64,000 bases of DNA from Clavulina sp. PMI_390 (lineage: Eukaryota; Basidiomycota; Agaricomycetes; Cantharellales; Hydnaceae). Under the pieces are notes generated by a model, which saw only the letters and a program-made list of their open reading frames with translations, made no database searches and was not told the DNA's origin. Positions within the stretch are counted from its first letter, which is position 1, and each line of letters begins with the position of its first letter. Positions 7,801-42,939 of the stretch are shown here, piece after piece. The stretch is taken from assembly GCA_015039315.1 (NCBI GenBank), contig WIDE01000061.1, forward strand, positions 78,693 through 142,692. Direction: 5' to 3'. Both the position numbers and the translations under genes were made by a program.

Positions 7801-10155
7801 TTACATGTCAAAATACCGGCTGAGACCTTCATGAACCGTTTCATCAGGTAATACAACACCCACATAGGTGTCAGGCCTAATAACAACGACTAAGGGCTTC
7901 TCTAAGCCTGAATTGAAGCCTGCTGCGCCTAAATATAGTTCTCGTCCAGTGCTCGCACCAATACTGGACGCAGGAAGTGGCGTGTCACAAACAACTTGGC
8001 CAGAGGGTCCAAGCGCACGTGTCAGATCTTCAACATCTTCGCTCACCAAGTCGGCGGAAGATGATACCACTAATTTGATGTCAATGAACGCATGCAGGCG
8101 AGACGGAAGGGCATCATTGATATTTTTGACGAGTTGTGCGGCAGACCATTTGCGCCCAACGAATGCGAGGATGGTGTACTTTCCACTGTAGTGAAGCAAC
8201 GAGTACAGCCGGGTGGGAGCTTCTAGCTCCTTGTTTTCTGGAGAGATGGAGGTCACATAGAAATCGAAAGCACGATATCCTTCGAGTGGTGGTGGAGGGA
8301 AGCTGATCTCGTCGCCGTCCACGCTACGTACTTGTGAAGGAGCTGCATAGGAGATCCCCATGCCTGCAGCATTGAAACATAAGTGTCAGAGGCCACCATA
8401 GGATAAATAATACGAAGTTGCTTACCAGTAATGAAGCGAGAATTCAGTTTCACAAGCCGTACGTATTCCGTTGAGTGGTTCCACGACGCCGCCGTTTGTG
8501 ATGGTGGAGATTGGCTATTGAGCTTGGCGAACTGTGTTGCCCGCACAAGAGCCCCAGCGGTCTCAATGACGGTGCGAGCAACAGGACGCCGTTCGTCCTG
8601 AGAGGGACAGTGTTAGAAAAAGGATATGAGAATGATGGCACATGGATCGTATCACTACCTCATAAGATTGAACGAGCTGCGAGCCAGCGGCACCACGGAT
8701 GACGAGATTCAGCTTCCAAACCAAATTGAAGGCGTCGGCAAGGCCGGTATTAAGACCTAGGTCGCAATGTCAGCAAGCTACCAAAAATGTTAGCCACTTC
8801 GCACAGACCTTGGCCACCATTGACTCTGTTCCGGAAGTTATATTAGTTCACCACCCTAAAGCAAAACTATTGGCGAGATGGCTTACGAATGGACGTGACA
8901 AGCATCTCCAGCGAGTATTACGCGATCACGTACCACGAACGCTGATGCAAGCTTCTCCCGAACTGAATGAGGGATAGTTAGGATTTACTCCTGGAAGAAA
9001 GCTCTATCCAGCTTACCGGTGAACTGGCTGCTCCAATGCATGTTTGTGAAGCGGAAAGGATGAGGGCGGACCGCCTTCACAATCTTTGCTACGGCTTCCT
9101 CCTCTGTGAAGTTCGTTGATTCCATCCTTACGTAGTATCGGTCAATGACCCCCTCGCGCGGGATACGAGCGACATCATTCGTGTCGACTTGGAAATTGAC
9201 AATTTCCGGTTTCCGTTCAAACGTCGTCTCGACTTCACCGTCCAATACCGCCCACGTCATTTCTGTGTCGTTTCCGATAGCGTCAAAAGTAACCTCAGGG
9301 AAAGACTTCCTCACGAATGAATGAGCTCCGTCTGCCCCGATCAGGTACTTCGACCGCACTACGATCTGCAAAACATATTTAGGGAGAGGCACCATAACAC
9401 GATATGAGGAGGCTAACCACCGCGCCATCAGGTCCGTGAATTCGAGCCCACGATGGGTGTTGATTGTCAACAACATCATCGACACCAACTTCAACTACTG
9501 AGACTTGGCGGCGGACTGGTGTCCCGGCTTCTGATAGCCTCCGATCCAAAATATCCTCAAGATGAGGTTGGCCAAGCATGAGGAAATGCTAATTATGGAG
9601 TCCGTCTCAGAAGAATTAAAGGTGCCAATCCATCGGCCCGACTTACCTTATGTTCGCAGCCAGTAAGTGCCTTCCACCATGCATCCTGGCGGGAAGTGAA
9701 TGCGCCATCCTTCCAAGTTGAGCTCGCTATCAAGGAGCCGGGGATGAGACACAGTAACAGCAGGTAGCTGGGCACACTGACTTGAGCACTCGAGACCCTG
9801 GGAATGGAGTTCATCAAATATACTAGGCTTCCGCGTAGGATCATCAAAAAGTTGGAGGAGTTGGAGGGTTCGAGCATTCATAGCATCAGCGCGCCCCACG
9901 GTAAGAGGCCCAGAGCTCTTATCTAGAGGATTTTTTTAGTGCTATAAACGGTGTTAAGGACGAAACCCCCACCGAAGATCGCGAGGCTTAGCCCCAAACG
10001 CTGGGCGAGTAAAGCCGAAGCTAGGCCAACGGGGCCGGCTGATTCAGAGCAACGACGATCAGATAGTATAAGAGAGCTATGGTTCATTCTAATGCATTAC
10101 CTCCAACGATAAGTAAATCAACCGTGGTTGGGAGGGCGCTTTCTACGTTGGTCAT
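7801..10155 (-). CDS. FAD-dependent aromatic hydroxylase (phenol 2-monooxygenase family)
   Basis: About 11 exons on the minus strand, ATG at 10155, TAA at 7801. After splicing, the N-terminus has the dinucleotide-binding motif VGAGPVGLASALLAQ, then RADAMNARTLQLLQLF, SSTWKDGAFTSRQDAWW and HFLMLGQPHLE. These are characteristic of the phenol-hydroxylase branch of PHBH-fold flavoproteins. The FAD-ribityl region reads GADGAHSFVRKSF and later GDACHVHSVNGGQG. The C-terminal third (about 8361-7801) ends in VVVIRPDTYVG, matching the thioredoxin-like dimerisation domain of these enzymes. The expected reaction is NAD(P)H-dependent hydroxylation of a phenolic ring. One exon (8809-8825) is only 17 nt and encodes the core of the VNGGQG motif. 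The gene is divergent from the isonitrile synthase fusion, so a role in tailoring a tyrosine-derived product is plausible but inferred. Confidence 0.88.
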
Positions 10156-11045
10156 GTCGATCGAGAGCCGACACTTGGGATTGGGATTAGGTTGAGAAGA
10201 TGGTGAGGATGAATCAGATGGCTACGTAGTGCGAATTGATGGGATGCTTTTAAGCGCATATGTTCTTATCGTTGCCGAGGCTCAAATGAAAGTTGAGGGA
10301 ATCTCAACTCGGTGGCAGAGGCGCAGGCTAAGTCACCGACGACGATAGCGGAGAATGGGGCGCAAAGTGGGGCCTTGCCATTAAATAAAAAATTGATGCC
10401 TCAGAGCGTATCATTTGTCCGACTATCGTGGAGTCCGAGGAACACCACTAGATTTTGTCAGCACTCTATTTGCGCCGATTTTGACTTGTTGAGGTTGCAA
10501 ATATGGCATGAAGGCACCACTTGATTCATGCAGCCACAGAAGCCCAGGCTTCTCGGAACCTTTTTTCTCGCAGCACTTCTCCAAAGAAGCTACCTAAGCG
10601 GAATATCATATGCCCAATGGAATTGGTCACTTGTATAAAGCTAGGCGATTATGCGAACAATCACTTTTCCCAAGGGCCAACAATGATGCCATTCTTATCA
10701 GTGGCCTAGTTGAAAATCCTATTACTTACTAATTTTTTACTTCGTCAAGTCTCGCCTCATGCCGTCCTGTGATCTCGCACCTATAAACTCTGGCCTGAAA
10801 GCCGGATTCGTCCTGCACAACGCGCGTGGCATGGCTGGACTGCTTCTATTCATCATAAATACATACTTTCAGCCTTCAATTTATGCGTTAGCACATGGAG
10901 TCTCTCTCTGTCACGGAGCGCACACCCGCTTGATCTCGCCTATGAAATCGTAGCTGATTTGCACCACTAATTTATCACTCGATATCCTCGCTGTCCTTAA
11001 GAGCGCAAGTTATCGTGTTTCTCCCGCTTGTCCCCCAAGAACAGT
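10156..11045. promoter_or_regulatory. Shared divergent promoter region of FAD monooxygenase and isonitrile synthase
   Basis: About 890 bp lie between the two divergent start codons. No coding motif was recognised. A TATA-like CTATAAAC occurs near 10780 on the plus strand, about 260 bp before the synthase ATG; whether it is used is unknown. The arrangement would allow co-regulation of both genes from one region. Confidence 0.45.
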
Positions 11046-13652
11046 ATGACGATTGCAATCGGCCCCGTCACGCCCCCCTTGGCTGCTGCGGTAGTCTCTT
11101 CCCGCCTGATCAGCCCATCCATCCCACCACCCGAAACACAATCCGAAGTCGTACTCCGAATTGTTGCTATTATTGAGAATTATCTTTTAACCACTGGAGC
11201 CAATGATCAATTCAACCAATCTGGGAGAAAACTACTTGCTTTGCGAGTAAACTGGCATGTTAGTCGAGATGTACCCCTTGAACTGTATGCCATCGTCTCC
11301 AGCCTTCATCTCTCTTAATGAAGCAACCCACACTGACCCTTTCGTGCACCCTAGGGTGCTCCCAGCTTTCCCCTTCAAATCCCCCAGCTCCAAAAAGGTC
11401 CTCGGCGTCCTCCCCGACTTTGCAGAAGAAATCGTGCTTCGCAGGTACATTTCGTGCTCTAACCTTGCTCCTGACCGACTCAACCGCTCGCTTAAGGCTG
11501 GAAGACATATGCCGCTCCATTGAAACCGTCTACAGCGCGGGGGCGTATCTCAATATAGTGTCAGATGGCATTGTCTATGGTGGTACGCTTGGCAATACTC
11601 CATGTTGATCTCCAAGCCGCGTGCTAATATTAAGCCCGTTCATTCCACCAGAGCTGGTGGGCGTGCCCGATGCCCGTGTTTATCAGTACAACGCCGAACT
11701 CCGATCCGTGGTAAGAAGAATAGGGTTGTCTCACATTCGATTCGTCCGCATGCGCGACTTGCTGCGCCCAGATCAAATTGCTCTTGCCAAGGATTCTGAG
11801 GATATCTCTGAAGAAGAGTACGTTGCCGAGGCGCCGCCAACACGCGCTGCGTTCCTATCCACCGACATCGGAGCCTATGACGTCGACGAGCACATCAAGT
11901 CCGACGTCGGTGTTTTGCGAACATACCAAGGCTATATGAAATTTTTGCAACTCGACCTAGAACGGCCGGAAAAGTCTCGAACACCTTCTCCGGTTTCAGA
12001 CTCTTCCTCCTCCGGTTCCTCCGGACCTACTGGTCGTCGTCACTGGAAAAAGAACATTGGCACAATTGCGAAAAATATGTTAGCAAATGGAGCGGTATGA
12101 TGGCTCCTTCACACATTTGATCAATTGACTGACGACCAGGATATTCAAAACAGCGATTCTCTGCCCTCGTTGAGCGCGGATTCCCCATGGCGATCAGACT
12201 CAGCATTCATCATCATACCAATTCTGGTCCGAAATTCGCTCTTCAAGTATTCCCTAACCTCGACAAAGCTTGTACACCAGTACGTCGTTCAGCTCCGAAC
12301 TGACGCGTAGAGCTTTGCGTCTGATTCGTTCTATGTTCTCAGTGGCATAATGTTGTTGTTCTGAAACGAGACGGGTCACTCGTAATCGAACACAATGAGG
12401 ACGTCGACATTGCCTCTCATGAGCTAATCTACCGCTACGGCCGGCCCTATTATTATCGCGAGATCGACCCCGCGATGCAAGGCTGGGGGACTACAGCCGG
12501 CGGCAGTCCTTCATTTGAGCCGCTCCACCCCTTTGGAGTTCTTGTTCGGGCCCCGGTCGCCTCTGGTGATGGCGCCAAGCCAATGTCGTGGGCAGATCTT
12601 CCTATGGAAAAGGTTCGAGAGCTTGCCAAAGGTTACTCGCTTGTCATTTTCCGGGGATTCGGTGGCGTCGGGAAGGACACGTACGTGACGAAAGCAAAGC
12701 AAATGGGTGAAGTGCAGTGAGTGTTGTCTCAGAAGTAGCACAATGCGCGCTTCTGACACACTTGATAGATCATGGGTTTTTGGTGACGTCCTAGAAGTGA
12801 AAGATGATCCTTCCATGGACCTTAATAATGGTAAGCGAGCCGTCCTTGGAGAACAATCTCCCGTTGACTCATATATTGGTCGCTCCCAGTGCTGACTCGG
12901 GAGGCAATGCCGATGCACTTCGATGGTAATTGCCCTATTTGGCCCAAATATTATATTTCTGATGACTCGCATTCATGTGTAGGACTATTCAAAACCAAGC
13001 ACGATGCGGAAGGGACCTTGATATCCGATCCGCCTACGTTCCAGATGTTCCAGTGTCTGAATGCGCCACCTCCTTCTAAAGATGGATCCGACGCAGGAGG
13101 GCGCACGCTGTTCACGAACACCCGCCGCATCTATGAAGAAGTGTTCGCAAAATCCTCCTCCCCGTTCGCGACTGATGTGAAGAACAAACAATGGAGAGTC
13201 TTCACACCAACAAATAAAAGCTTCGGCGGCAGCGAGCTGAGGCACCCAATATCAACCATCAATCCACTCACTGGTCATTATATCCTCCGCTGGCATGAAA
13301 AATGGTACGTCCCGGGTCAATGTGCCATACTCCGCAATATTCTCAGCATCAAACTATCTAGGCCTCAGCATATCACCACATTCAAGCCTACAATGGTTGA
13401 GATCATTGGCCTTTCCGAGGAGCGATCCAATGCTCTCTCAGATCATATCACCGAGCTCTTGTACGATCGCAGATTCGTATATGAGCACACATGGGAGACA
13501 GGTGATTTCCTTATTGCAGACAACATTGAGGTGGGTCACAGTTTGACGATTAAGATGGACCCCCCGCTCATCACCTCGCAACTTAGCTCATGCATACGAG
13601 GACTGCGTTCCAACCATGCGCGAGAGAATTATGGCGAATCCACATCAATTGA
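11046..13652 (+). CDS. Isonitrile synthase (PvcA/DIT1) fused to Fe(II)/2-oxoglutarate oxygenase (TauD/PvcB)
   Basis: Exons: 11046-11284, 11355-11444, 11497-11582, 11652-12094, 12154-12279, 12343-12716, 12769-12830, 12890-12925, 12983-13304, 13362-13530 and 13587-13652; all phases agree, giving 670 residues. The N-terminal domain (about 20-365) shows the PvcA/DIT1 hallmarks: LELVLPAFPFKSP (about 78-90), SDGIVYGELVGVPD (132-145), and HELIYRYGRPYYYRE. In this family the enzyme converts an amino acid amine, usually that of tyrosine or tryptophan, to an isonitrile using ribulose-5-phosphate. The C-terminal domain (about 395-670) is a TauD-type oxygenase with Fe ligands H483 and D485 (MPMHFDG) and distal H652 (LMHTRTAF), and R662 or R666 as candidate 2-oxoglutarate binder. 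The last ligands appear only after removing intron 13531-13586; without splicing, a wrong stop at 13681 is read. A Ser-rich linker lies near 12000-12030. PvcB-type partners desaturate or decarboxylate the isonitrile acid. The substrate and product here are unknown. Confidence 0.93.
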
Positions 13653-13769: not shown

Positions 13770-16328
13770 CTACCAATCGATTTCCCACGCGATAGGCTGA
13801 TTTCCGACCTCTACAGACTCCCTGAATGCCTCGAAGCCTGCAGCACTGAATTCTTCAATCCCATCGGTCTTGGGGACTAAATCTGCTTCTTTACCGCGTG
13901 CTCTAGGCACATGACGGTGACGTGTGTGATCAGGCTGAGCAGAGTGAGAAAACGCGGCCCCGTATGCTGGAGAGTCTTCTGGTCCCGTTCGTGCATTCCA
14001 CTCCGAACGAGGCATCTGTTCCATTTCTCGCTGCACCTTGGCAGAGGTAGTTGGGAAGAACTCGGCCCGTCCATAAGTATCCAATGCTTCGTATTCTCTA
14101 TGATATGCATAGTTAACAAGGAAGGCTTCGTGACCGATGGGATGATAAAGGAAACTCACCTCGGGATATACTCAACAAACTCCCCACCAAATTCGACCGC
14201 TTCGTTGTTGAGCCAAGCAATCAGATATCGAGTGTACCCTTATATTAACAAGAAGTGCATGAGGGAGAGCTGAAGATGATGGAAAGGAGAAGGGTAAGAC
14301 TCACATTGCTCTCGTCCGTGGAAGAACCTGAGCTCTTTGCCAGGGCCAGGATAAGTTGCCCACATTTTTTCTCTGCTAGGGAGACGAGCTTTGCCAGCCC
14401 ATGTGCGCGAAAAGGCAACTGCTTGATACCTGTTCAGCGTCCATGCCACCACTAAACCGGCAAAAGTGTCGAGTCAGGATGGGTTGAAGGCAAAGACAAG
14501 AAGAGAACTACTGACGTCGCATGATGCCCAGAGTGGGATCATCGATGTAGTGTCCCGTCCAGTGCAAAGAGCGGACATGTGTGCCATCCGTGATGAGAGG
14601 CGCGATCCTCGTTTCGGGTTCGTCATGGCCCTTGATTGTGCTGTTGAGTTGCAGGTATGGATAGTGGGAGATTAACGGTGTGATGGGCTTGGGTACCAGA
14701 GCAGATGAGACACGAACCTGTTGTGATAATCAGCGAGGAAAGGATTCGAGCGACGGAAACCGGTCGCAAAGATAATCTTTCAGGAGATCGGAGCAATTAG
14801 GATGCCGTGAGTTTCAAGAAAGCAAGAAAAGAGAGCATACATAGTCGTAGCCGGACCCAATGGTACCATTCCTCCAGGTCAGCTCGAGCTCTGCTACATC
14901 GCTGTAGAGATGATGTTTCGGGAGAGTTATCTTGGATATCTCTGGCACGATCGAGATGTTCGACGGAAGCCTGGCCAAGAAGACCTCGCGAAGTGGGTTA
15001 GTCTCGTTCTTGGGATGATACTGAGCGGAGAGCAGGGCAATCAGGGCGTGATTACTAACATCATACGAGCATGATGACATACCCGAACAGAAATTGACAC
15101 CGATTGCGCAAAAGGTAGGAGATCAGTCGCGATACCGAGCGCTGAGATAGACGCTCCCACGACCAGCACGTTCTAGGTCAAGTGTAAGCTGAGTATGGTT
15201 GGGTGGGATAGAGAAAGTACCATGCCTTTCCCGTGTATTTATCAGGACGCCGGTACTCTCTCGAGTGGATGAGTCTCTCGGGGAACGCGTGCTGCGCTTC
15301 CGAGATACCCTCGATACTTGGGATCCACGCGGCATCGAAGTCGCCTGTAGCAACAACAATAGCATCAGCCTCCTCAGTCCACCAGTGAGCCCGTACTTTG
15401 TTCTCGTGCGGAATCCTCTCAAGCTTGCGGAGCGTAATCGTCCAGCGTTGAGCGCCCTTGGGCTTGTGGATCTTCTCGACGCGAGTGGAGTAGGACAGCA
15501 CACCAGGGTATTCGACATCATTCGAGTTAATGCCATGTGCAGACGCAAACTGACGAACATATCGCTGGAGGTACTTGTTGTTTGGCTTCCAGGGCTATAA
15601 GGGAAGAAACCATCCCTCGGTCAGCCAAGAGGCACCGCGGTGGATAGTGTATGATAAAGAGTCGATCACCCACAATGTCTGGTTGATGGTTGATCCCGGG
15701 TAGGGTCATGATAAACTATATTGGAACGATGAGCCAAGGATAATGCCATTCAATGGGGATTCGGTTTCCACTAACGGGCGGGGAGATCGAAGACATATTG
15801 TGATAAGCTGCACTAGGCCGATGCTGCTCGCGTAAACGATACGAGGTGGTGAAACCATCCTCTCCGTCCTCGTAGACATGGGTGTAAGGAAGGGTTGGCG
15901 GGACGTCAGGAACGTAGGACAAGTTGACAAGATTGCTCATGTTGGCACTAACAACATCGGTCAGGGTACGATAAGTCCAGCACGGAAACTAAAACAAAAG
16001 AGGCATACGGGTATGATGCAGGGACGGCAACTTCTTCGTCATAGTTCCAGTTGCCCCCTGGGCGCTCGCTACGTTCAAATAGCCTCACGTCGAAGCCATC
16101 CTGCAGGAGGACGGCGGCAGCTTGCAAACCGGCTGGTCCAGCACCGATGACAGCTACACGTCGAATCTCATGGGAGAATTGATAGAAGGCTGACCCTCCC
16201 CGACCATCACTTTCATGCTGGACGAACGGCTCTTGCGCGTCAAACGGCTGAAAGAGTCCTTCATGAAGCGCAACGGCGACAGGAGTGTAATGCAACAGGG
16301 CGAGAATCGCCGTGAAGAGTTTTAGCAT
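13770..16328 (-). CDS. Flavin-containing monooxygenase 1 with N-terminal signal peptide
   Basis: A multi-exon minus-strand gene, ATG at 16328, stop at 13770. The first residues (MLKLFTAILALLHYTPVAVA) look like a signal peptide, so the enzyme is predicted to enter the secretory pathway. The FAD-binding motif is VAVIGAGPAGLQAAAVLL, followed by ERSERPGGNWNYD. A second, NADPH-binding Rossmann motif with a NVLVVGASISALGI pattern follows the exon ending RRPDKYTGK. The layout fits group B FMOs, which oxygenate nitrogen or sulfur, or insert oxygen next to ketones. It is a clear paralogue of the gene at 27733-30279, sharing the signal peptide, the order of motifs and most intron positions. Its stop codon is 117 bp from that of the isonitrile synthase fusion (convergent). 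Internal exon borders in 13770-15120 were not all resolved. Confidence 0.82.
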
Positions 16329-16984: not shown

Positions 16985-18113
16985 ATGGTGCACAGTGATG
17001 AATAAAATCCAACAACCTAAAATCGCTTTCTTGTCGTAATCTCCTTAGGCTTCTTGCATCTTTCCCCTAGAGATAGTGGGCCACGTAGCCAGATACGCGG
17101 ATCTCGAATCTCTCAAAAATCTCTCACTCACTTCCCGCCCGTTACGAAGCGAGGCCGCCAGACATTTGTGGCGAGCGGTTCTTTTCGAGAGCTCCCACCC
17201 TGAGCGGTTCTTCATCATGCAGCAATACGCGCACATCGTTCAAGATGTCCAGCTTTGTTTTACCTGTGACTATCATGAATCCGGCGACGAAAACTTCTCG
17301 CTATGTGAGAATATGCTCTCCATCCTTTTCTCGCTTCCTCGTCTTCGAACCCTCCACCTCCTTGTCTCCATACCCTCCTCTGACCACAAAACCGAATGCC
17401 GAATCTTCGCCTACTTATTGGAGGCAGACTTCTCACGCTTTCCTCCACTACGGCACCTGACCTTGAGTGGAGTTTTGCACCAAATTCATCAGCGAGAGTT
17501 GGTTCCTAAGCTGGTGACTCAGCTCCCGAGCCTCGAGGTCCTTGATTTGAAGAATGCTTATCGAGATCATGTGGAGCATTTCAAACCAGGAATGTTGCCG
17601 CGCCTTTCGAGGCTCTACGCTGCTACTATGGAGGACGTATCAGCTGCTGTTGGGTCCTCGCTTGAACATCTCACTGTTTCATGTGGCCATATTGACTCGG
17701 AAAAACTTGAGACGCTGATGTCTTTTATCAGCACATCTCTCGATTCACTGGAAACCATTCAAATCTCTGGGTCAGGGGGGCTAGGGTCCTTGATCCAAAT
17801 ATTCAAGTACATGGCAAGCTTGCCCAGGCTACGCCAATTGTACATTAGTTTTTACCTCCCAATTTACCCTGTCCTACCCTCGCGATTAGTCGATCCCATT
17901 ATTTCCGGAATCGAATCATCAAAGTCGAGTGGCGGGCTACGACAGCTTTCCCAGCTTTCCCTCGTTTGTCCCTCATTTGAGAAAGAAGATGGCAAACAAT
18001 TCATTCGCAGGTGCTTTGATATCCTTGGTCCAGCTCTCAATTCGGTAGAGATACGCAGAACGCGACGATCTAGGAGACCCCCCAAGGTGCTGCTTGGTCG
18101 CAAGGATGAGTAA
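16985..18113 (+). CDS. F-box/LRR-like protein B1
   Basis: The proposed model is an exon 1 of only the ATG (16985-16987), an intron at 16988-17048 (GTGCAC to CTTAG), and exon 2 at 17049-18113, 355 residues. The second exon opens with an F-box-like FPLEIVGHVARYADLESLK and LSLTSRPLRSEAARHLWRAV. A leucine-rich region with LPRLRTLHLL and LPRLRQLYISF follows, closing with 'FIRRCFDILGPALNSVEI'. It is a tandem paralogue of B2 at 19173, with conserved segments throughout. The ATG-only first exon is supported by the phase match and by the need to keep the F-box. The ATG at 16978 is out of phase. The likely role is an SCF ubiquitin ligase substrate adaptor; the target is unknown. Confidence 0.72.
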
Positions 18114-19172
18114 GTTGATGAGACCATGTTTGCTCTCTGGACTCGTGGGACCCCTGACCTTTCTTGCATTCTCATGATTAGTTCTGGGAACATAATATTC
18201 CCTGTTGTGGTGTGAATGGCTTCACTCGACCTGAGTTCGTACCACGCTGGCCAGGATCGATGGCGGTCATCAAGCAAGCGATGACGCAGGGTCAGCTCTT
18301 ACCAAAACCAATGAATATTTTGTCGCATTTCTAGTCCGGTTAGATGTGGTATGGCTGTTCCAAATCCTCTGGAGTCACGCCAATTGAGGTCTCCCAATGC
18401 ATTCTGAGGCCATGTTGTTACATTCCCAATAGACTTTTGTGAATTATATTTGAGATCACTCTCGGGACCGTTGATGCGTGTAGGGATAATCGCTAGAAAC
18501 CAAGTTTCAATTTTTTGGTCCACATGTCCCTACCGAGCCTCTTATGACCTACGGACGAAAAGCTTCCTGCAGGCTGGATTGAAATCTCACATAGGCACCC
18601 ACGGTCTTTGTATGCAATCACTAGCGTATCCGTGGGCATAACAAAGCTCCTTAGTTGCATATCAGGGTGGGTTGTCCTTGAGAATCCTGGATATTGCCAT
18701 CTATTGCGAGGCGATCCTTGCAACTTGTGCTATCAAGCGCAAAACCCGCCCCATCCAGTGTCTTCGCGATCCCATGAATGCATCAAATGTTCCATTATGT
18801 GCTATTACTTACGGTTCCAGCGACTAGGAGCGCAGGCTAATAATACCTTTGGAGCTAACGCCGTCACGTGCACTATTGACTAGATTTATAGCGGCGGTGG
18901 CCCCTAACGTCAATAAGGTCCAAAGTACATCTACCTTCAGAAAACCGACCCGGTTATTCGGGTTAAACCGCTACCACTTCTCCGTATCATTGCTTCCCGA
19001 CTCAAGTTGAGATCCACACGCACGCCATTCTCAGAACCGGCGAAAGGGCTCCTAATTTCCAGTCAGCGGGATTCGACTCCATTGTTATCGCCCCGTACGT
19101 CTGAATATACTCTGGCCGATACCTGTTCATGGATACAGTTTACTGACGTCCATGACTTAGTTCACTTGCGCT
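18114..19172. other. Intergenic, no gene seen
   Basis: About 1.06 kb between the tandem paralogues B1 and B2. Short unmotivated frames only. No transposon ends were identified. Confidence 0.45.
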
Positions 19173-20340
19173 ATGTTCAGCTTTCCGTCTGAAATAACGG
19201 GCTATATCGCCGAATATGCAGATATTGAAACACTAAAAAATCTCTCACTCGCTTCTCATTCATTGAAGAGCGAGGCATCGAGATATTTGTGGTACACCGC
19301 GCCGCTCGAGAGCCCCCATCCTGAACGGTTCTTTATTATGCAACGATACGCTTGGGCCATCAGAGACGTCCAACTCCGTTTCACTTGTGATTACCAAGTA
19401 AGCGGTAGCGAAGACTTTGACATGTGTGAAAGGATGCTCTCCATCCTTTTCTCGCTCCCTCGCCTTCATTCACTCCACCTCTTCGTCTATGTTCCTTCCT
19501 CCGAACACAGGGATGAATGTCAGATCTTCAAATACTTCCTTGAGGCAGACTTCTCGCGCTCGCACTTGCGGAATTTGGCCCTGACGGGTGAATTATTTCG
19601 CCGCGGTCGGCGAGATTTAGTCACCAAACTCCTTTCTCAGCTATCAAACCTCGAAACCCTCGATTTCTCCGGGATTCATTTAGAGCGTAACGCTCGCTTC
19701 ATATCAGGGATGCTCCCACGCCTTTCCAGGCTCACTGCTACGACCATAGAGGATTTGTCGGTTGCGGTTGGCTGCTCACTCAAACACCTGGATCTTTCAT
19801 GTGGACGGCTGGACTTGGAACATATTGACATGCTGATATCATTCCTCAACACCTCGCTGCAATCGATCACCTTCTTGCGAATTCACACCTCAGGGACGCT
19901 CGAGACCATGCATCAAATATTAAAGCGTCTTGCAATCTTCCCCGGATTACGCCGATTCTACATCCAGTTTTTCATTCTTCGGCATGCCTTCCTCTCTTCT
20001 CAATACGCCGCTCCGATTCTGTCCTCAATTGAATTTTCAAAAACCAACGGCGGGTTCCGACGACTTTCTGAACTCGCCCTCGTCGGTCCTCCTTTTGAGA
20101 GGGAAGCCGGCGAGCAGTTCATTCGTGGATGCTTCGGTATTCTTGGTGAAACCCTCAACTCAGTGGAGATACGCCAAAGGAGAGAGGGCGATGAAGCTTT
20201 GGAGAAGACAATTCTTGTTCGTAGGGCGAGGTATGTTGACCAGATTATCCCCTGCTCGAAGGCTCGCGATATCTCTAATAATTCCATTTGACAGCAGTTC
20301 CCGAACACTCACAATTTCTACTTCATTGGACATGGATTAA
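19173..20340 (+). CDS. F-box/LRR-like protein B2
   Basis: The ATG at 19173 is followed at once by FSFPSEITGYIAEYADIETLK, the F-box helix equivalent to B1, and then LSLASHSLKSEASRYLW. Leucine-rich repeats and the closing FIRGCFGILGETLNSVEI block align with B1 over the full length. The single open frame runs to 20291. A good intron (GTATGT to GACAG, about 20232-20294) would move the stop to 20340; the extension is uncertain, and the gene ends at 20291 if it is not spliced. B1 and B2 differ at many sites, so the duplication is not recent. Unlike B1 there is no need for an ATG-only first exon here. The predicted role is an SCF adaptor, by family. Confidence 0.78.
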
Positions 20341-21047: not shown

Positions 21048-22388
21048 TTAGTCGTACGTTCGGCTGGGATACTTGTCAAGATAGCTTAATATCAGCTTGG
21101 GGGCCGACTGATGATCTTCGACTCCCTTGAGCAGAAGGCGAGTGCGACCATCACCTTTGAAATCCGTCTCCCGCATCCATTCCTCGAGCGTCTTCATCCG
21201 ATGAATCTTGTTGATCCATTCCATATCTCGGGTGACGATGTTATCTCTCCATGTAGCAAAGAAGCCGCGCATGACGGTCTCCCACCTCTTGCTTTCGCTG
21301 TCAGGGATACCGAAGGAGATCGGTTGCTGGGGTCGATTCCACATGAGGAAGAAGTCGTCCATCGACATCGATTTATAGACTGCCGGCAGGCCAGTAACTT
21401 TCTTGAAGGTTCGGACCATTTCGGGATATGAGACGAATTGGCCAGCAACCTTGATGTGCTGGCCTGCAGTGGTTTCATGGTTGTCAAAGATGTATCGGCT
21501 CCACCACCCAAGATCGTCCAAGGCAATCAAGGCCCATTGTCCGGTTTCGGCACGCTCTTCGCCGAAAGGAGATGCCCAGACTCTTGTGCCGTCCTCCAGA
21601 ACATCGAAAGGATGGATAACATGACGAAGCCTGATATTAACAGATCAGTGTCAGTCTCTCAAATTATTTGTGCTATCGGAGGTACGCACATCTCCATGTA
21701 CGGAGCGTTGGTGTACGCAGTATATGTGGTGGCTTCTGGGTCCTCAGCACGATTAGGCAGCAATGAGAGATAGTCGGCAAAGCGTCCTTTTGTGTTGTAG
21801 TGATCAGCCTCATAGACTGGATCGTAGCCCTGCATAGAACGCCAATGGAATGCTCAATGAAATATCCATGAGACGAGAAAGTGAAAACTTACCCCCAACT
21901 TATAGGAGTAGTCAAGCGCAGACCAGACGAAGTGGCGAACTTTTTGGTAGTTGGCGATTTCCCACTGGGATGGTAGAGGTCGGTGAGTATGGCTCAACTG
22001 AGGGAGGTCTGCATGCAATATACTCACAATCTCAAATGCCGCCGTCAGCTCTTTCGCTCCTCCTACCGTGTAGGTGTCGGTGTTGACATATGCGCCGTAT
22101 GCACCTTCGAAGAGTTTGTGGACAGTGGCGTGATCCATCCAACTCCCTATGCCAATGAGAATCGGGTGAGATGCGAAAAGAGGCTATAGCCCAGCGGAGG
22201 CACTAACCTTGAACGAGCTCAGCGCCAAGGGCCTCGAGCTCTTTGGCCCGACGATGATTGGGGTCTCGAGTCAGAGCGCGAACCTTCCATGGGGATGGGG
22301 TACCATCCTCAGAGGGGCGGAGCAAATGTTTAACGGTAGGGATGCCTTGGGCACCAGTGGCACCAATCACAGCGATGATCTTGGACAT
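21048..22388 (-). CDS. NmrA-like NAD(P)-binding Rossmann-fold protein
   Basis: ATG at 22388, stop at 21048, with about four exons. The N-terminus KIIAVIGATGAQGIPTVKHLL contains the GATGxQG dinucleotide-binding motif of the NmrA/atypical short-chain dehydrogenase group. Later segments (HATVHKLFEGAYGAYVNTD, VRHFVWSALDYSYKLGG and a long C-terminal segment with KVTGLPAVYKSM) fit the NmrA-like family of about 330-350 residues. Some members act as redox sensors controlling transcription factors; others are isoflavone-reductase-like enzymes. Which applies here cannot be told from sequence. It lies between the F-box pair and the alpha/beta-hydrolase, within the wider oxidoreductase-rich region, so a tailoring or regulatory role in the same pathway is possible but unproven. 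Confidence 0.85.
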
Positions 22389-24676
22389 TATTGTGAAAGG
22401 GAAGAGTCTGAGAGGGTAAAGAAGCTAGGTGAGTTCGAGAAGAGCGTGGGTTATAAACATTTCTGCCTCTATCATTGTGTCACAAGCTCGAATTAAGTGG
22501 ATAACTCGAAAAAAGTATAGTGCGCAGCAGGAGGTACTTTGACATGCTGATGAAAGGTATGTGACTTAGTGGGACATTGCCGTGAATGAAGCCCGATCAG
22601 TGGATTTGCGTTCCACTTTCCTGAAGTAGATTCGCCCCTTATACGAGGGTCACATCGGGAGCAACTACCTTATCCGATCCTGTCTACTTGGGCCAGATGT
22701 TGGAACGCAGAGCACTAGAAAACAGTCAGAATTAGAATCATTTGAACGGATTCCCCAAACCCCCAGGATGTTGCTTGTCGAAGAAAACACGGCACCCACA
22801 GTAATGCTCCGCACTCCGAGACGTAAGCTGTGATTGGAACGGCTAAAATAATCACCACGGACCGATGGCTTGAATCTGCGCCAAGCATTGTACAACGATC
22901 AAGGTGCCACACCAGATGATCCCGGCGCGGAATTCTGAAGAAATTAGCCCAGCGCGAAAACGCCACGGCATGTTGCTCACTCGAGGAGCTACGACCCGTG
23001 TGCGGCATGCAAGCATCAGTAAACTTGAACAAACATCATCTCGATGGACCATATCGGAAACCTCGGAAACCGAGTTTGTTTCGGACTTTGTGCCCCCGGG
23101 ACCTGTCAACTTCTATGAAACGTTCATTCTGTCTCCACCCCGCTGATGTCTTGGTTGCTTAAATAGGACTTCACCGAGAACCATGAACGAGATCGAGATC
23201 CTATTCGGACGGCATGTACTAGCACTACCAAATCAACAAAACTCCGTACTCTTCCGCCACATAAAGCATCCGAGGTGCTCACACAATCTATCATCGATAT
23301 TATCATATCCCGTTTCATTGCTCTCAAAATTTCCAAGCGTGGTTACTCGCTCCTCTCCTCACTGGCGGCGTAATTTGTCTCTTAATCTGTATGATAAAAT
23401 CACTCAAAAGAGGTTATTCTGGAAAGCGAAACCCTGTGATATCCTGATTATCAGTGCCTGGTGAACTGGGCAAGCTCCGAGTAGCCACAATTAGCAGGCA
23501 ATTCAAGTTGTAGTAGCATTGGCGCTGGGCAATCGAAGTTTGGCGGTTTTTAATACATTTTAGTGAGTCGAGAAGCTCATCAAACGCCATTAAGCTACTC
23601 CCAGCCCTCGACTACAGGGTTCACTTATGGCCCTCACTTCAATAATGCTAATCAGCTTGTCACTTGATTTTCTGGAATACTTCTCAAAGTTCGGCCTCGG
23701 TCCGAGGGCCAGAATCTACTAATGAGTCAGTCAATCATGGGTTGTATTTGACCTTGCGGGTGAATCTTTCTAGAGAGAATGAATATTGAGCGCCACTTCC
23801 AACCCCTCCGGCACTCAACATTGACGTGGTGTATGCAGAAACTTGCAGCCCGCGAACTTTTTTTTTGGCCTTATCTCTTTCTATATGTCCCTCTCGAAGC
23901 GTACTTCACTCTCTGCCTGGAAGAATTTGGCAGGCCACTTTTGAATGTGCCTTAATAGGCAGCAAGGTGGAGTTACAGGAAGCCCACTTTGTGCTTCTTC
24001 AACTGGCAAGTTGATCCGGTTAATTATCACCAGGTAACGCGAGATTCAAGCTTCAGCTCTAACTGGGCCACGTCCATAGTAATGATATAATGAAAACTAC
24101 GGGCGGCCTTTTTACGCCGACAACTTTTCTGTGTTCCCCCTTCCCGTCCTTCTTGCTTGGCATTAAGAATCATCGTACCCCTCATATAAGCAGTCGACTC
24201 ACAAGGTCATATCACGAGTCATACAAGGCTCTCTCTGAAACAGTCATCGAAAGCTTTGATTAGAACCGGTGCTTGTGGCTAAGCGGCTCGGGCCCCGAGC
24301 CGGGCCCGTCAGCGTGCCATGTGTAACTGTTACGATGCGTGAGATGACGGCTCCTAGAAGTTAGTTGGACACAAGCCCAGTATTATCGAGCCAAGACTCT
24401 GGGTTGGGCTATGATGGCGACTGAATTAGGCGCATCGAGAGTGGATCTGCCAAAATGAAACATAAAGCCGCGGCATCCACAGGCTCTGTATTGGCTCCGA
24501 GAACCAGGTGCCCCAGCGCAACTTCGGTGTTAAACAACGACGGCGAGCAAATGACATGGGGTTACGCCTAGATAGGCTAGCGAACAATATCGGATACCAG
24601 GATGTCAAATCAAATGATACGAGTACACGAAGGGGTTGTACCAAATGGTGCCGACGACACAAACTCGGGAGTCTCC
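22389..24676. other. 2.3-kb gene-poor stretch
   Basis: No frame longer than about 110 codons and no recognisable protein motif on either strand. A short GC-rich perfect-arm palindrome (GGCTCGGG / CCCGAGCC, 1-base centre) sits near 24284-24300. No transposon termini or tRNA were recognised. It could contain decayed sequence or an unrecognised non-coding gene. Confidence 0.4.
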
Positions 24677-26182
24677 TCAGATCTCTTTGATCTGGTGGAA
24701 ACTTTCGCCATTCTTCAGAATTGCCTCAACAACCATATCCGCCGCGATCGTACATTCCGGAGTAGCCCCAAGGGCAGCAGGGAAGATGTGGAACTGCTTC
24801 CCTCCAACAATATAGGTTACGTCAACCCCCGCTGCAGCCAGCAACCCGACGTATGAATCCGCCTCGGGAAAGAGAATATCCCACTCTCCATTGGCAATGA
24901 TAAGCTTCGTGCCCGCCTCTCGGAAGATCGCGGGATCTCCTGCCGCCGGGGAAAAACAAGGGTTGGAGCTGAATTCCGTGGGAAGAGGAACGGTGTGGAT
25001 TTGGCCCGCTAATATGGTCTCTGGAGGGACCGGAACACCCGCATATACGCGGATCGTCATAAAGACAAACTGCGTCGTTAGCCAAATGTCGTATGGCTCA
25101 ATAAGTTTCATTTCCGCAGATTTGCGGTATAGCAGGTCGAAAGCAGGTGAAATAGCGACAAGTTGATGAGGTAGGGGGAGTTTCAGAGCGTGCAGCTCAT
25201 GGGCTAGTCCGTGGCAAATAACCGCGCCTGCACTACGCGCCGTCAAACTTCTTTCAGCCACCAGAACGGGAGAACTATTGAGCCATGGAATAGATAGTTA
25301 CCTGTCACCGGCAAGGATCACCTCTTTATCACCAGCGCGCGCGACAAAATCCTTGTAGATGCTCAGCAGCTGTGGGCGCCACTCGGGACCAGGATTATTC
25401 GGCCCCAAAGGGTACGGCACCATGACCACCTCAGCGTTAAGCCAACGCGAAAGGTAGCCGACAAATGCCCAGTGCCAGTTGATACTGTGAATTAAAATTT
25501 TCGAGATAAGTGGTCAGAGCTCAACCAAATGATTTACTGAGGCATACATCGGAGGGTGCATAAATCCGGATCCATGGAGGTAGAATATCGTCCTCCGAAT
25601 CGCGCTTGGATCATTTGAGGCAGTAGGAGGCGACACAATCGTCATCACCCAGCCCGATTCCTCATGCTTCCACTGCTCAAAGCTCCGCTCTTGCCCGCTC
25701 TCCAGCATCCTATTCACCGCCGCTGGAGGAGGGAAGTCCCAAACTTGTGGACCTTTCGGTAAGATGATTCGGGGCCATGGAGGAATAATAGGTTTTCCGA
25801 CTAGGCGGCGGAATAGACCGGAAACGCGTCTCTGAAGCTGAAGATGGAACTTTTGGAAACGCCAGGCCCACCAGAAGAAGACCGCTTTCCATGATTTCCG
25901 CGGAATATAGACGCGTTTGACGGTGCCAGTGACACTTGGCAGAAACAGTGAGTTAGTCACTGTCATCGGGCTACCGTGGCCGTAGCAAGTTTAATATGGC
26001 TCCAATTAATACTCTGGAACTTGGAAGACTCCAGCTGTCAGAACAGGAACAGGGGTACTTAGGTCGACGAAGGGGTCCTGAGGGGAATGGAGATCGATCG
26101 TGCGGCGAGTTGCTACTGCCGAGTACCGGGGACGGCATACTCCGGAATTCATGAAGGTAAGAGAACATAGCCAAGAAGCCAT
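24677..26182 (-). CDS. Alpha/beta-hydrolase fold-3 esterase/lipase (HSL / steryl acetyl hydrolase type)
   Basis: Minus strand, stop at 24677. After splicing, the catalytic serine motif reads GDSAGA, formed across the intron at about 25233-25301. The oxyanion-hole motif is YLHGSGFMHPP (the usual HGGG becomes HGSG). A likely catalytic Asp is in NGEWDILFPEAD and the His in GKQFHIFP. The splice after HPP (AT|GTATGC) joins to INWHWAFVGYLSRWL, giving the expected strand and helix. The N-terminal region before 25880 contains an aromatic-rich WKAVFFWWAWRFQ stretch that may be a membrane anchor. The start is uncertain: an upstream exon with ATG at 26182 can be joined in frame to the main exon (ATG 25966). 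The expected reaction is carboxyl-ester hydrolysis, for example deacetylation of a small molecule. Confidence 0.8.
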
Positions 26183-27732
26183 AGTACTTTGGTCAGATGA
26201 TGTTGAGGGATCAGACGAACTCTTAGAAATGATTGCGACCAGTGATACGAAGTAGCTCCGAAAGTGAGACGTAATACGCAATTGAGACCTTGAGAAGATG
26301 GATCGATGCACTTATTCAATCTCTTTAGCTGTTATCGAAGTCTTCAGCGATGTCGAGGTGCATCGATTGACAGTGGATTCCGCGAGTCAAGCCAGGATCA
26401 TAGCCTCAGTAGACCGCACGACATCGGAGAGTAATGACACTCGGCCATCAGCATAGCATAGAGAGTGTGTCGTAAGCTTAATCTAGCTATGCTCTTGGGT
26501 GTACCGTACTGTTGGTTTCCAGTAAGAGGAAGAGCATTGGTGCCCATGTGACCACTCCGTCACCATGTCGACCGGAAGTCCGAACTCGCAAGCCGTCACC
26601 GAAAGCTGAGGAGTCAATATCCATGACGGCCTCGGAAATTGGTTACCTGACCCTTGGCTTCAGGATCAAACGTGGGCCGACTCCCCCAATCTCACAAGGC
26701 CTCCTGATCCGGTATCAGCCTCTGACAGCTCCAAACGTATCAGTAATTCACGTCCCGTTCATGTACCGAGGACATACCAGATGCAACACTTCCTTCATCT
26801 TGCTCTTCTTCCGTTTCAATTGACCCCTCGGCCCCAGTTAGAGTGTGTTTCTTGTTGAGCCAATCTCATCGAGATCTCCGCGGAGTGAACGCCACAGTCT
26901 ATTCTGCCCAGTCTTGTTGGTGTGAGCCCCAGACTAATGAAAAGCTCTCGAAACATTCCAAGAGCAAGTTCTCCCTACAGGTGACAACGCCAAAAGGTAG
27001 CGGTGACCGAGGAGGGCTTGCCAATCACGCGCTGGAAGAGTCTGATCCGACGCAGCACATAAAATTGACAGTTAGGAGAGGATTTCGATTCATATTTAGC
27101 ACCCTTCGCGTCGGTGAAAATGAAGCTTGTTCACATGATGCGGGCGCAAAAAGTTTTATCGTAGCCATCTACTCCCCTCGATCCAGGATTGTCATGATGC
27201 TCTTCAGATGATTGAAGCATGATCTCATATGATACTATCCCGTAAAAACCCGCTCCTGCAGCTCGAAGGGAGCGGAGAGCTACGCCCAATGCTGAGGACA
27301 CTTTGTTCAAGAAAAAGCTTCCACTGCGAAAGGATCGCTTCGGCCAGTGATGGGGGTGAGATACATCAGCTGCAAAAGGGAGACCAACGAGCGGAGGTTA
27401 AACATTCTCCAGAAGAGAAGGTCTGCTGGACAACCGCCGATATTGTACTCTGGAAGGACATGAGAGTGGCGTCACTACTATGACAGTCGATGGGAAGCTG
27501 CTGAGCCCACAGCATCAGGAAAGAGCCACGGTGTCAGAAAGAAGTAACATTACTATAGAGTACGCCTTGTCGCGCTCTCTACGAACAATGGCAAAGGTTC
27601 AACGATAACTGGGATGATCGTTTCTTCCCGCCATGTAGAGGGACGCGTGGGAATCAGTCTGCAATAAGTCTCACGGTGTGTTTGCGAGCTCGGAACCAAT
27701 TTGCCCCACGAACGGCGCACCGTCGCGACCGA
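26183..27732. other. Divergent intergenic region, no gene seen
   Basis: About 1.55 kb between the hydrolase (minus) and FMO2 (plus). Frames at 26512-26823 and 26843-27211 have no recognisable motif. It probably contains both promoters. Confidence 0.4.
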
Positions 27733-30279
27733 ATGCTCTTCTGGATCGTCGTCGTTGCCCTTTTTACTTCATCGACCACCGCCGAGCAACACCCCCTCGG
27801 CCTCGGCAACGACGCCTTCGGTGACGGCGCCCAGCATCGATACTACAAATTCCCTCATGACATCAAGAGGGTCGCGGTCATAGGTGCTGGCCCGTCAGGT
27901 CTGCAAGCGGCCTCTGCACTTCTTGACGAGGGACTCGAGGTGAGGCTGTTTGAGAGACAAGATCAGCCAGGAGGGAACTGGTACTATCAAGATGCACAAC
28001 CGATCGAGTTATCACCTCGGTAAGTCAGAGAAACACCATAGACTTCCGATGATCGCGAGTCGGCTGATGCTATTCCAACATGCGATGGAACGACTTTAGG
28101 AAACATCGAAGCCTGTATAAGTCTTTCAACAACCCGACACACAAAATCCCATCGGTGCAATATTACAATGACGGGGCGGAGGGTGTCTCAAACTCATGGC
28201 GGATACGAGAGCACACCAACCCTAGTCCCATCTGGAACAATCTTACCACTATCATTCCACCAGTGAGCAAGCCCCTTCTTTGTTCGTCGAGGCAGCCGTC
28301 ACCACGTTGCTCACTTCCTCGCAATAGTTCATGATGACCCTTCCCAATACCGAATACCCCCCTACTGTGGTGAGTGTGCCGCTTGGTGGTTGCTTGGTGG
28401 TTTCTGACTGGTACACATGCAGCCGTGGCGTGTCCCCCAAGTTCATATTGGGCGACATGTCCGACAATTCGCATCAGCCCACAGCCTGTCCCCAAATGAC
28501 GAGCAATCTGCGCATATCATCTCCTACTCCACGCGTATCGAGCACGTCCACAAGACTCCGTCGACAGGGAAGTGGACCCTTACCTTGCGCAAGCTTGAGC
28601 AGCTCCGCTACAACCGTACAACGGGAGAGCCGCTGGGTCCTGGAGGTGAAGTTCGTGAGGAGTGGTGGACCGAGGATTTCGATGCTATAGTCGACGCGGC
28701 TGGCCCATTCGATGGCCCGTTCGTCCCAACCTCTATCGAAGGCTTGCATGATTGGATGGAGGACTATCCGCATTGTATTTGGCACTCTCGGAATTATCGA
28801 CGACCTGACCAGTTCCAGGGCAAGGTAGGCAAAGGCATACACTGGCTTACTGCGCATAATTCCATCGATCCGTTCTATCCTCTTGTGCAGAACGTATTGA
28901 TAATTGGGGGAGGACTGTCAGCCCTGGGGATCTCAAAAGACCTGGCCGAAGGTGGTGCGTTGGTTTCAGTCTCGACTCGAGTGAGTGTATCATCCGCCCC
29001 ATTGCTTGATGCCGTCTTCAACCGCATTTTATTCACGGTGTGACTTTTGCGCTCCAGGATAACGCAATGAGCCCCGTGCAACAAGGAATACTCCCACTAC
29101 TCCATAAAAATGTCACAAAGCTCCCCGAAATCCACTCATTCTTTCCTCTTGAGCCTACCCCAGAGCCTTCGTGTGATGAACTGGGAGAGCTTAGGATCAT
29201 GTTAGCGAACGGTACGGTCCTAAGCGGATATGATTATGTGCGCCATCTTCTACCCCGCTTGAGCTGTGCATCGACTTATATTCACTTCACATTATTCAGA
29301 TTGTCCTGGCCACCGGTTATCGTACATCACATCCGTTCTTGTCTGACTATCATAATAGGTCAGTCATCTTTGTGCCGATGCTTTACCTTTGGCATCGTGC
29401 TGACCATCACTCAAACCAATGTCGCATCATACAGTACGATAAAGGGCCGAGAAGAACCGGATGTCCAAGTTGCCCCCATTATTACAGATGGCACCCATCT
29501 TCGCTCGCTTCATTGGACTGGTCACTATATCAATGATCCTACCCTCGCCATTGCTCGCTGTAAGCTTACCAATATCTCTTCCATTTCAAAAGCCGCACAC
29601 CTTTCCCAATCCCATACGCTAATCTGCGATTATATTTATACAGTTACTCCATGGACGATTGGACGATACTCTTCGCTCGGCTTCGCTCGCGTTTGGAGTG
29701 GACGCGCAAGGCTGCCAAGTGTAGAGCAAATGTGGGCAGAATACCCTGGGGCTGGAAAGGAGCTTCTGGATCCCGTTGGCTTTGGGGAATGTGAGTTGCG
29801 TTCATGTACAAAGTCAAGCTGGCAACTCAACCCCCTCCTTCGTAATGCGCGGTGTATGGTAGGGTGTTCGAGATTGTTCATTACATGGCTGAACACTGAG
29901 GCGCTTGAGTTCGGCGGGCGGTTCGTTGATTCACTTCCGCGGTATGTCATTCGTCTATGTACCTTGCACCTATATTCATCTAATCTGCTTGTACGTGGCT
30001 CATCTCGTATTCTTCGATAGACATCACTATGATCTAGCCTACTTTGGTGCAGGCGAATGGCGTAACGATAAATTTATCAACCTGAAATTCCTCCTAAGCC
30101 TTGAAGACACCCCACAATCCCAGTGGCCAACTCGAAACGGGCGAGAACAAGAGGAGTGGATGAGTGGTGACCTGGATCGGTTGCTCAACCTGGATGTTAC
30201 ATTGGGGGCGGCTGAATGGCCATCCGAGATCCCCATGGTTAATGACGAGACATGGAGGGAGTGGAATCTTGAGTGGTGA
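27733..30279 (+). CDS. Flavin-containing monooxygenase 2 with N-terminal signal peptide
   Basis: The ATG at 27733 begins MLFWIVVVALFTSSTTA, a likely signal peptide. The FAD motif VAVIGAGPSGLQAASALL is followed by ERQDQPGGNWYY. Exons are joined at CG|GTAAGT to TTTAG|G (giving RKHRSLYKSFNN), at a GTGAGC intron before FMMTLPNTEYPP, and at GTGAGT to ATGCAG before PWRVPQVHIGRHVRQFAS. The second nucleotide motif NVLIIGGGLSALGISKDL follows. The 3' part (29040-30279) has several short introns; not every border was fixed. The end is LEW-TGA at 30277-30279. It is paralogous to FMO1 at 13770-16328. The stop is only 68 bp from the convergent TPR gene. The substrate is unknown. Confidence 0.82.
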
Positions 30280-30347
30280 ACACTCAACCTTCATTCACGA
30301 TGGTTTGCGTTACCAGACGACTGGTATTTTGCTGTTACCCACTGAGA

Positions 30348-39866: not shown

Positions 39867-40542
39867 GGATATGATTAAGGTGACTGCTAATGTCGGGCTG
39901 TCTGATCGGATGTCAAGTGATTGGATCAGGGTGCCTGTGGTGGAAGTAAAGGCGAACGACAAATAGTATGTTTCTGACTTGCGTCACCGTCACACCCCCG
40001 TGAATTAGCCTCTCGTATTTGTATAGTATACGAAAAATCTTGATATGATGCCACAAGTAGGCGGGGAAATATGGCCGAAATATGTGTCTGAGGTGAAATG
40101 CTTCCTGGGACTGGGCCGAGGCTCGGCAGGGGTTTGCGGGCGTATCAATTGTGAGTGATGGTTAATGTGGGCACCGATCGCTCCCCACGATGCATTAGAT
40201 ATGATATCAATCTCAAATGTGGATAGGTCGGGCTTCCTACTGATTGAAATGTATTATCGGTCCTTGTGTGCGTGTCAACACTGTGAGAAGAAAAACACGT
40301 CCATCTGAATAGTCAAATCTGGTTGCCCTTGCGACCGCACCCTGGCCAAGTTTATTCTCGTTGAAGGAGATTGACCACTTGAACAGGTTTGTCATTCTCT
40401 TGTAACTCTTTCACACAGCATCCAACGCCTCTTATCGCTTCGAACCTCTTCCCGCACGGGAGCCGCTGTCTTTGGTTGCCCCCACCTTGGCTAGTGTTCT
40501 TCTCGCATAACAGATCACTTCCCCCTCTCCTTGTCTAGTTAA
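39867..40542. other. Intergenic, no gene seen
   Basis: About 675 bp between the starts of C1 (minus) and the DUF6533-like gene (plus). No recognisable coding motif; it presumably contains both promoters. Confidence 0.45.
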
Positions 40543-42521: not shown

Positions 42522-42939
42522 ATCATATAATGTGATCGCTGCTGGAAGCAGTGATAGAGGAGCAGTATACTCAGTACTATCATAAATATTGCCGGGTCTC
42601 ATGCTTGACTCCCAGCAACACCAGCTAAGAGGCCTAACGTGTGAGGTGGAGGTGGGGCTACGCCCTCCCTATTGCGACTTGCTAACTCTTCGCTACCTCA
42701 TATGATTGAGGCAGAAGAGCAGATTGTAGCGAGGATTACCAGTATACCTTAGAGGACTGAATGACAATGGAAGTGGGCATCAATAATTTTTGACTCCTCT
42801 CATTATCATGTCGGGGTCCAAGTCTATCATGAAGTGTTCGTCCGACTAAACAACTTTGGGCAATTTGGAGATTCTTGCAATTGGCAGAGTTTGCTCAACC
42901 ATGGTAGCCCCTGATTTCCTGATAAATTTGACGGCTAAT
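42522..42939. other. Intergenic, no gene seen
   Basis: About 420 bp after the DUF6533-like stop with no recognisable feature. Confidence 0.4.

Follow-up and report, generated by a model that had tools for sequence, protein, structure and literature searches.

What do two divergently transcribed genes of a mushroom make, if one codes for a fused pair of isonitrile-pathway enzymes and the other for a phenol-hydroxylase-like flavoprotein? The question is raised by a stretch of 64,000 nucleotides of Clavulina sp. PMI_390 (contig WIDE01000061.1, positions 78,693 to 142,692), which we call the window and number from its first letter; the assembly comprises 39.4 Mb in 301 contigs, of which C260 carries the window. 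A preliminary description, made from the letters alone, proposed a PvcABC-like isonitrile pathway consisting of a synthase-oxygenase fusion (gene A) and a flavoprotein in the third place (gene B). Here, we report that genes A and B probably constitute a small divergent isonitrile pathway leading to a catechol vinyl isonitrile, with gene B akin to the third enzyme of a bacterial one.

Gene A and the type of its oxygenase domain

Gene A occupies 11046..13652 on the forward strand. Its 11 exons were joined by hand across GT-AG introns of 52-70 nt each, and the resulting splice model is an uninterrupted reading frame of 670 residues. The encoded protein begins with an isocyanide synthase (ICS) domain, DIT1_PvcA (PF05141), at residues 70-356 (11253..12426, introns counted in; 251 bits against a cut-off of 26.4, E 2e-74). 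This is followed, on the same strand, by a TauD domain (PF02668) of the iron- and 2-oxoglutarate-dependent (Fe/2OG) kind at residues 387-667 (12517..13640, introns counted in; 107 bits, E 1.6e-30). The iron ligands are complete, with HFD in exon 8 and the distal histidine of LMHTR in the last exon, and the three residues align with PIsnB positions 101, 103 and 250. The preliminary description had seen in gene A a single protein with PvcA/DIT1 motifs ahead of a TauD iron site; the motifs, both Pfam domains and the complete HFD..H site bear this out. The profile check it suggested for the spliced proteins returned DIT1_PvcA (the N-terminal match being that at residues 70-356), TauD and, in gene B, FAD_binding_3.

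The single-protein fusion is supported because many homologues of gene A carry both domains within one protein. The public model from the same fungus, P0001, shares 99% identity with gene A at 98% query coverage. It equals gene A over residues 1-649 and then, within 13531-13652, reads through the last intron, without the distal iron histidine of LMHTR; the gene A end at 13652 fits the homologues better than does the end of P0001. The AlphaFold model of P0001 (mean pLDDT 85.8, the mis-modelled C-terminus counted in) compares with PIsnA and PvcA at TMt 0.81-0.87, and these two are the closest solved structures to the ICS domain of gene A.

The claim that the first two steps are fused was right as far as it went, the fusion as such being an ordinary fungal architecture. 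Among the ICS proteins of fungi, 36.2% are of the ICS-TauD kind, one of the three architectures that are usual there (PMC10153163), and fused ICS-dioxygenases occur in both fungi and bacteria (PMC5974471). With the fungal ICS-TauD proteins (ICS-DOX, e.g., XanB and IcsB; PMC5974471), gene A has the domain order and both Pfam domains in common, and its diagnostic residues, described below, are those of most listed homologues. Unlike them, it stands in a basidiomycete branch, has a bacterial-type hydroxylase dependent on flavin adenine dinucleotide (FAD) as its partner, and lies in a window that gave no cytochrome P450 or DJ-1 match among the candidates scored.

The product of the first domain deserves a caveat. 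Dit1, a relative that is similar to isocyanide synthases, is reported not to be one and to make formyl-tyrosine instead of an isonitrile (PMC7345447), and N-formyl tyrosine is also accepted by PIsnB and PvcB (PMC9467999). Gene A might likewise yield a formyl amino acid. However, the closest solved relatives of its ICS domain are PvcA and PIsnA, and the desaturase fused to that domain would be of the PIsnB type, known in isonitrile pathways, so that we give the formyl product a very small chance.

Which reaction the second domain catalyzes can be approached through two residues. In the rule given in PMC9467999, enzymes forming vinyl isonitriles have K or R at PIsnB position 107 and N or H at position 188, as opposed to L and C in PvcB-type enzymes; the PIsnB numbering was verified by script on the aligned segment. 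At the positions of PIsnB K107 and N188, gene A has K and H, which agrees with the PIsnB type and disagrees with the L, C pair of the PvcB type (PMC9467999). The K, H pair is present in 111 of the 120 gene A matches listed (P0001 counted in), with M,H in three of the others, K,N, F,H and N,H in one each, and three sequences that are gapped at 107, at 188 or at both. P0001 also matches PIsnB better than PvcB in sequence (88 versus 59 bits) and, as the AlphaFold model, in fold (TMt 0.84 versus 0.74-0.75). The TauD domain of gene A is therefore forecast, by the same published rule, to be PIsnB-type and to form a vinyl isonitrile, rather than PvcB-type. We would note that the two-residue assignment is a forecast only, because single mutations at the two diagnostic sites did not switch the product (PMC9467999).

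Taken together, residues, sequence and fold argue against the Pvc comparison and for chemistry on the rhabduscin side. The rhabduscin locus of Xenorhabdus, isnAB-GT, shares the isnA-isnB vinyl-isocyanide genes (PMC6386379) and has a glycosyltransferase in place of the hydroxylase. The pvcABCD operon of Pseudomonas aeruginosa shares the ICS and the Fe/2OG enzyme, with genes for further oxidation in one operon, but differs in its PvcB-type oxygenase (PMC9467999) and in its product, 2-isocyano-6,7-dihydroxycoumarin (PMC3639982).

Gene B and the bacterial loci of its family

Gene B (10155-7801, reverse strand) has 11 exons and 595 residues in the splice model, and confirms the divergent phenol-hydroxylase-family flavoprotein of the preliminary description. 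FAD_binding_3 is matched at 190 bits (E 1e-55) and Phe_hydrox_dim marginally, at 25.5 bits against a cut-off of 24.9. The public model, P0121, is short of 54 N-terminal residues. The nearest non-self matches are Cantharellus anzutake P0122 (55%) and a partial model from Exidia glandulosa (60%). Among the remaining 117 of the best 120 of 2625 matches, those named by organism are bacterial and many are metagenomic without a name; they share about 46-51% identity with gene B and are 423-510 residues long, compared with its 595.

The best NCBIfam model for gene B is NF005531 (PRK07190, 'FAD-binding protein'). This model scores P0121 at 427 and the Cantharellus P0122 at 483 bits, under its cut-off of 530, whereas two bacterial proteins score 896 and 916; the next-best model gives P0121 170 and P0122 199 bits. 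Gene B is not filed as a member because it falls below the cut-off, though it scores far above the next model, and by homology it is best described as a fungal sister of the NF005531/PRK07190 family. Its bacterial matches, and the bacterial loci described below, mark it as something other than an ordinary fungal phenol hydroxylase. VibO (PDB 7yj0), the top solved-structure match in sequence to the Cantharellus relative of gene B at 203 bits, is much more distant from that relative than is the PRK07190 family, whose model gives 483 bits.

Between the two genes lies a divergent intergenic region of 890 bp (10156..11045, as delimited by both gene models), which we infer to be their shared promoter region. 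A scan of it for bacterial-type promoters and terminators gave nothing above shuffled sequences, which has little meaning in a fungus; the same applies to one AT-rich inverted repeat seen there, for which there was no control.

The bacterial relatives of gene B provide the context in which its function can be considered. An alignment of gene B was scanned against one genome per species of 84,980 bacterial and archaeal species, giving 99 relatives. The analysis went on with the 80 best of these, and partners were searched within about 6 kb of the flavoprotein with the ICS domain, the TauD domain and the flavin-containing monooxygenase (FMO; gene C, below) of the window as queries. An ICS was found in 73 and a TauD in 79 of the 80 loci; the FMO query had no match in these 80 stretches. 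The seven loci without ICS are L068, L084 and L092, which start near a contig end, L072, L075 and L082 from Pectobacterium, and L104 from Kutzneria; the L075 genome has an ICS elsewhere. Open reading frames (ORFs) of both TauD and flavoprotein were called in 73 loci, and in 68 of these the two abut on one strand, at 60 nt or less. The ICS shares their strand in 65 of 65 loci, lying upstream in 58 and downstream in seven (six Vibrio, one Marinomonas). The bacterial loci are thus mostly operon-like, and they hold together the same three enzyme families as the window. They differ in layout: bacteria mostly have three separate co-directional genes, the fungus a fusion of two of them and, transcribed divergently from it, an intron-rich third gene.

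The oxygenases of these loci were typed in the same way in 71 of the 80. Of these, 53 have R,N at the diagnostic positions, nine R,C, five L,C and two R,G, and R,S and R,A occur once each; by the PMC9467999 rule, the partners of the flavoprotein would be mostly, not only, PIsnB-type. These counts bear on the PvcABC-like reading, in which the product of the TauD domain would be an isocyanoacrylate, its carboxylate retained, and hydroxylation by the flavoprotein would lead on to paerucumarin or another coumarin-type compound. Relatives of gene B do occur beside PvcB-type TauD (the five L,C loci) and beside the mixed R,C type (nine), and the ATP-grasp ligase of some bacterial loci would suit a retained carboxylate. 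However, the TauD domain in the window carries K and H where PvcB-type enzymes have L and C, and 53 of the 71 bacterial partners have the R,N pair that is PIsnB-type by the rule.

The third enzyme points the same way. We take PvcC to belong to the HpaB type (PF03241), presumably another flavoprotein family than that of gene B, and no match to HpaB was found in this genome. The third enzyme of the window is a FAD_binding_3 protein and not a PvcC homologue. We consider PvcABC-like chemistry unlikely. Of the preliminary description, the fused synthase-oxygenase, the non-PvcC flavoprotein in the third place and a plausible pathway remain; the Pvc type of the oxygenase does not, the pair being that of PIsnB-type enzymes (PMC9467999). 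Its 'non-homologous' flavoprotein is indeed not of the PvcC kind, but neither is it an ad hoc replacement, since the bacterial sister family sits with ICS and TauD.

Several features of the bacterial loci are recorded in their own right. Pfam searches on ten representative bacterial genes returned ICS, TauD, FAD, ATP-grasp, SnoaL, MFS (major facilitator superfamily) and AMP-binding domains, and DJ-1/PfpI in one Pseudomonas locus, a domain common to fungal isocyanide hydratases (PMC5974471). ATP-grasp and MFS genes stand beside some of the loci; neither was noticed in the window, where no systematic search for either was made, the MFS search on the contig having scored 8 of 254 candidates. An ATP-grasp ORF cluster occurs in 25 of the 80 loci (L030, L027, L058, L060 and others); the ORF models of some are poor, and the Pfam test covered the L030 protein. 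The ATP-grasp protein comes after the flavoprotein gene, which hints at coupling of the product to an amine or an acid. In the Pectobacterium loci L072, L075 and L082, TauD of the L,C type and the flavoprotein have no adjoining ICS, and an AMP-binding enzyme (tested in L075) lies upstream. In L029, L040, L043, L067 and L099 (Vibrio, Marinomonas), a separate TauD and the flavoprotein gene are followed by a long ICS of 580-665 residues; that of L040 is itself fused to a TauD domain, which is matched only weakly.

In the listed titles and abstract starts of the open-licence literature, this flavoprotein is not named in isonitrile operons, and an earlier description may exist elsewhere. With passages of four papers also searched, a bacterial isonitrile operon with this flavoprotein is, as far as these searches show, undescribed.

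Pairing in fungi and the history of gene B

In Cantharellus anzutake, the ICS-TauD protein P0004 and the flavoprotein P0122 are both reported on a contig of 488282 bases. Contig size was checked as an indicator in Clavulina: the proteins of genes A, B and C (P0001, P0121 and P0241) all report a 200192-base contig, and P0003 and P0006 report 799814 and 759331 bases, the sizes of the contigs carrying their sequences. The evidence that the pair is conserved in Cantharellus is therefore good but indirect. DIT1_PvcA is found at four places in this assembly, the window counted in, and is a rare domain (0 of 14 control genomes); the gene B query matches this locus alone in this genome. As five ICS clusters have been counted in a Clavulina genome (PMC10153163), the window locus is presumably among them.

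A number of points weigh against the pathway as proposed, beyond the mutational result, the report on Dit1 and the scores under the NF005531 cut-off given above. Linkage in Cantharellus is an identical contig size, coordinates not having been seen, and Exidia has both genes on contigs of different sizes, 109664 and 152510 bases. Gene B was not found at the other three ICS places of the genome (six stretches searched, much of one side of one place reading N). In the window there is no match to P450 (PF00067; 92 of 173 contig candidates scored) or to DJ-1 isonitrile hydratase (PF01965; 13 of 13 contig candidates scored). Neighbours of these two kinds, like MFS genes, are frequent at fungal ICS clusters, though not a requirement. 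Furthermore, isnAB of Legionella is reported always to be accompanied by a P450 and a helix-turn-helix protein, no flavoprotein being named in the portion of PMC5126622 cited. Three of these points, namely the other ICS places, the cut-off and the Exidia contig sizes, which show no linkage, would suit the possibility that gene B serves another pathway, e.g., phenol catabolism, and adjoins gene A by chance. Against chance stand the association of the bacterial family with ICS and TauD and the Cantharellus genes on a contig of identical size, and we regard such an accident as very improbable.

Two side observations concern linked ICS genes. P0005 reports a 77702-base contig, and the gene seen there is a close ICS paralogue (74% over the longest piece), part of the contig reading N. 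That contig may hide a fifth ICS gene, and the two are perhaps a tandem pair. In Infundibulicybe gibba, two different ICS-TauD proteins, P0007 and P0016, both report a contig of 335181 bases and perhaps form a linked pair.

We now turn to whether the three parts of the proposed pathway share one history. Identities were compared using 52 of the 80 bacterial loci, those without ORFs of all three genes within the length limits being dropped. Among bacterial pairs, the median identity is 51.5% for ICS, 57.8% for TauD and 65.0% for the flavoprotein. From Clavulina to bacteria, the values are 24.9, 29.7 and 47.6%, from Cantharellus to bacteria 25.8, 28.6 and 47.2%, and from Clavulina to Cantharellus 54.5, 58.5 and 56.1%, in the same order. 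The ratio of the fungus-bacteria to the Clavulina-Cantharellus distance is 4.47 for ICS and 4.81 for TauD versus 2.42 for the flavoprotein, with bootstrap ranges (25 replicates) of 3.22-5.78, 3.85-7.23 and 1.87-2.85, the last lying apart from both others. Because gene B is nearer to bacteria (48%) than are the ICS and TauD domains (25-30%), its history probably differs from theirs. Either gene B split from its bacterial relatives more recently than the ICS-TauD backbone did, or the backbone would have undergone a burst of change. We infer that gene B was acquired separately.

The trees place a limit on this idea. They do not show gene B nested within bacteria: in both of two FastTree runs, the three fungal sequences form the sister group of all the bacteria sampled (support 0.965 and 0.99 for the fungal clade, 0.778 and 0.884 for the bacterial clade). 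The outgroups were distant and the models of two of them deficient, L110 being over-long and L109 short, and one tree used one in three of the listed database matches. With the fungal clade as sister to the sampled bacteria, the topology does not show the direction of transfer.

With these data, we tentatively propose, at somewhat less than even chances, that the third enzyme of a widespread bacterial operon was transferred to the mushroom lineage and joined a separately evolved ICS-TauD, so that one pathway was rebuilt across kingdoms out of parts that differ in age; its product would be a catechol vinyl isonitrile that plausibly acts as a ligand for copper. The other course would be that gene B, ICS and TauD were inherited as one ancient cluster in which gene B evolved more slowly, with no separate transfer. 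Such inheritance would agree with a fungal flavoprotein clade that branches beside the sampled bacteria instead of among them, with a root on a long branch, and a burst of backbone change at fusion would yield the same numbers. However, the three parts differ about equally between Clavulina and Cantharellus and unequally to bacteria (24.9, 29.7 and 47.6%), and the distance ratios have non-overlapping bootstrap ranges. One ancient cluster is accordingly rather doubtful in our judgment, with some real weight left to it.

Neighbouring genes and the predicted product

The gene list of the preliminary description was incomplete, in that it did not mention an FMO adjoining gene A. This gene C (13770..16328, reverse strand; splice model and Pfam) has 11 exons, one GC-AG intron and 636 residues. 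It was considered as a pathway member and rejected, the FMO family in this genome being large and no Cantharellus-named protein being among the best 120 of 192 matches; it is probably unrelated to the pathway. The family gave 113 matching pieces, gene C exons counted in, with 69 of 105 candidates scored; it has expanded greatly here, many of its copies lying near one another on contigs C273 and C246. A second FMO-like gene lies at about 27680-30290, as judged by ORFs and the genome family scan. Two genes of the reverse strand lie between the FMO genes, with no pathway link shown: a possible NmrA-like gene at 21051-22183, whose 26.7 bits fall just short of its Pfam threshold (27), and, at 24429-25990, an alpha/beta-hydrolase-3 gene. 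F-box-like long-ORF genes are present at 1294-2397 (Pfam-tested) and, by eye, at 17049-18110, 19161-20288 and 38550-48579.

For the proposed pathway of genes A and B, the following steps can be envisaged. The ICS domain would act on an aromatic amino acid, most probably L-tyrosine, and form the corresponding isonitrile; tyrosine is favoured because the closest structures include PIsnA with L-tyrosine and because the third enzyme is of the phenol-hydroxylase type. The fused Fe/2OG domain, acting as a PIsnB-type enzyme, would desaturate and decarboxylate this to the vinyl isonitrile. Gene B would then hydroxylate the ring ortho to the phenol to give the catechol vinyl isonitrile. In this scheme, substrate, order of steps and regiochemistry are all predictions. 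Gene B would be the counterpart of the third enzyme in the bacterial isnA-isnB-FAD loci, sharing with bacteria a more recent ancestor than does the ICS-TauD protein. That the product binds copper is a guess by analogy with other isonitriles in PMC10153163.

The locus ties a fungal isonitrile pathway to a bacterial arrangement through one flavoprotein family, so that function may be read from one to the other, and the product predicted for this basidiomycete cluster is a definite one. The locus would also be a place to test how a cluster can be pieced together from genes of separate descent. For the bacterial family, named until now just 'FAD-binding protein', the isonitrile synthase present in 73 of 80 loci suggests a likely pathway. 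The same families in fungus and bacteria point to one shared three-step chemistry across kingdoms.

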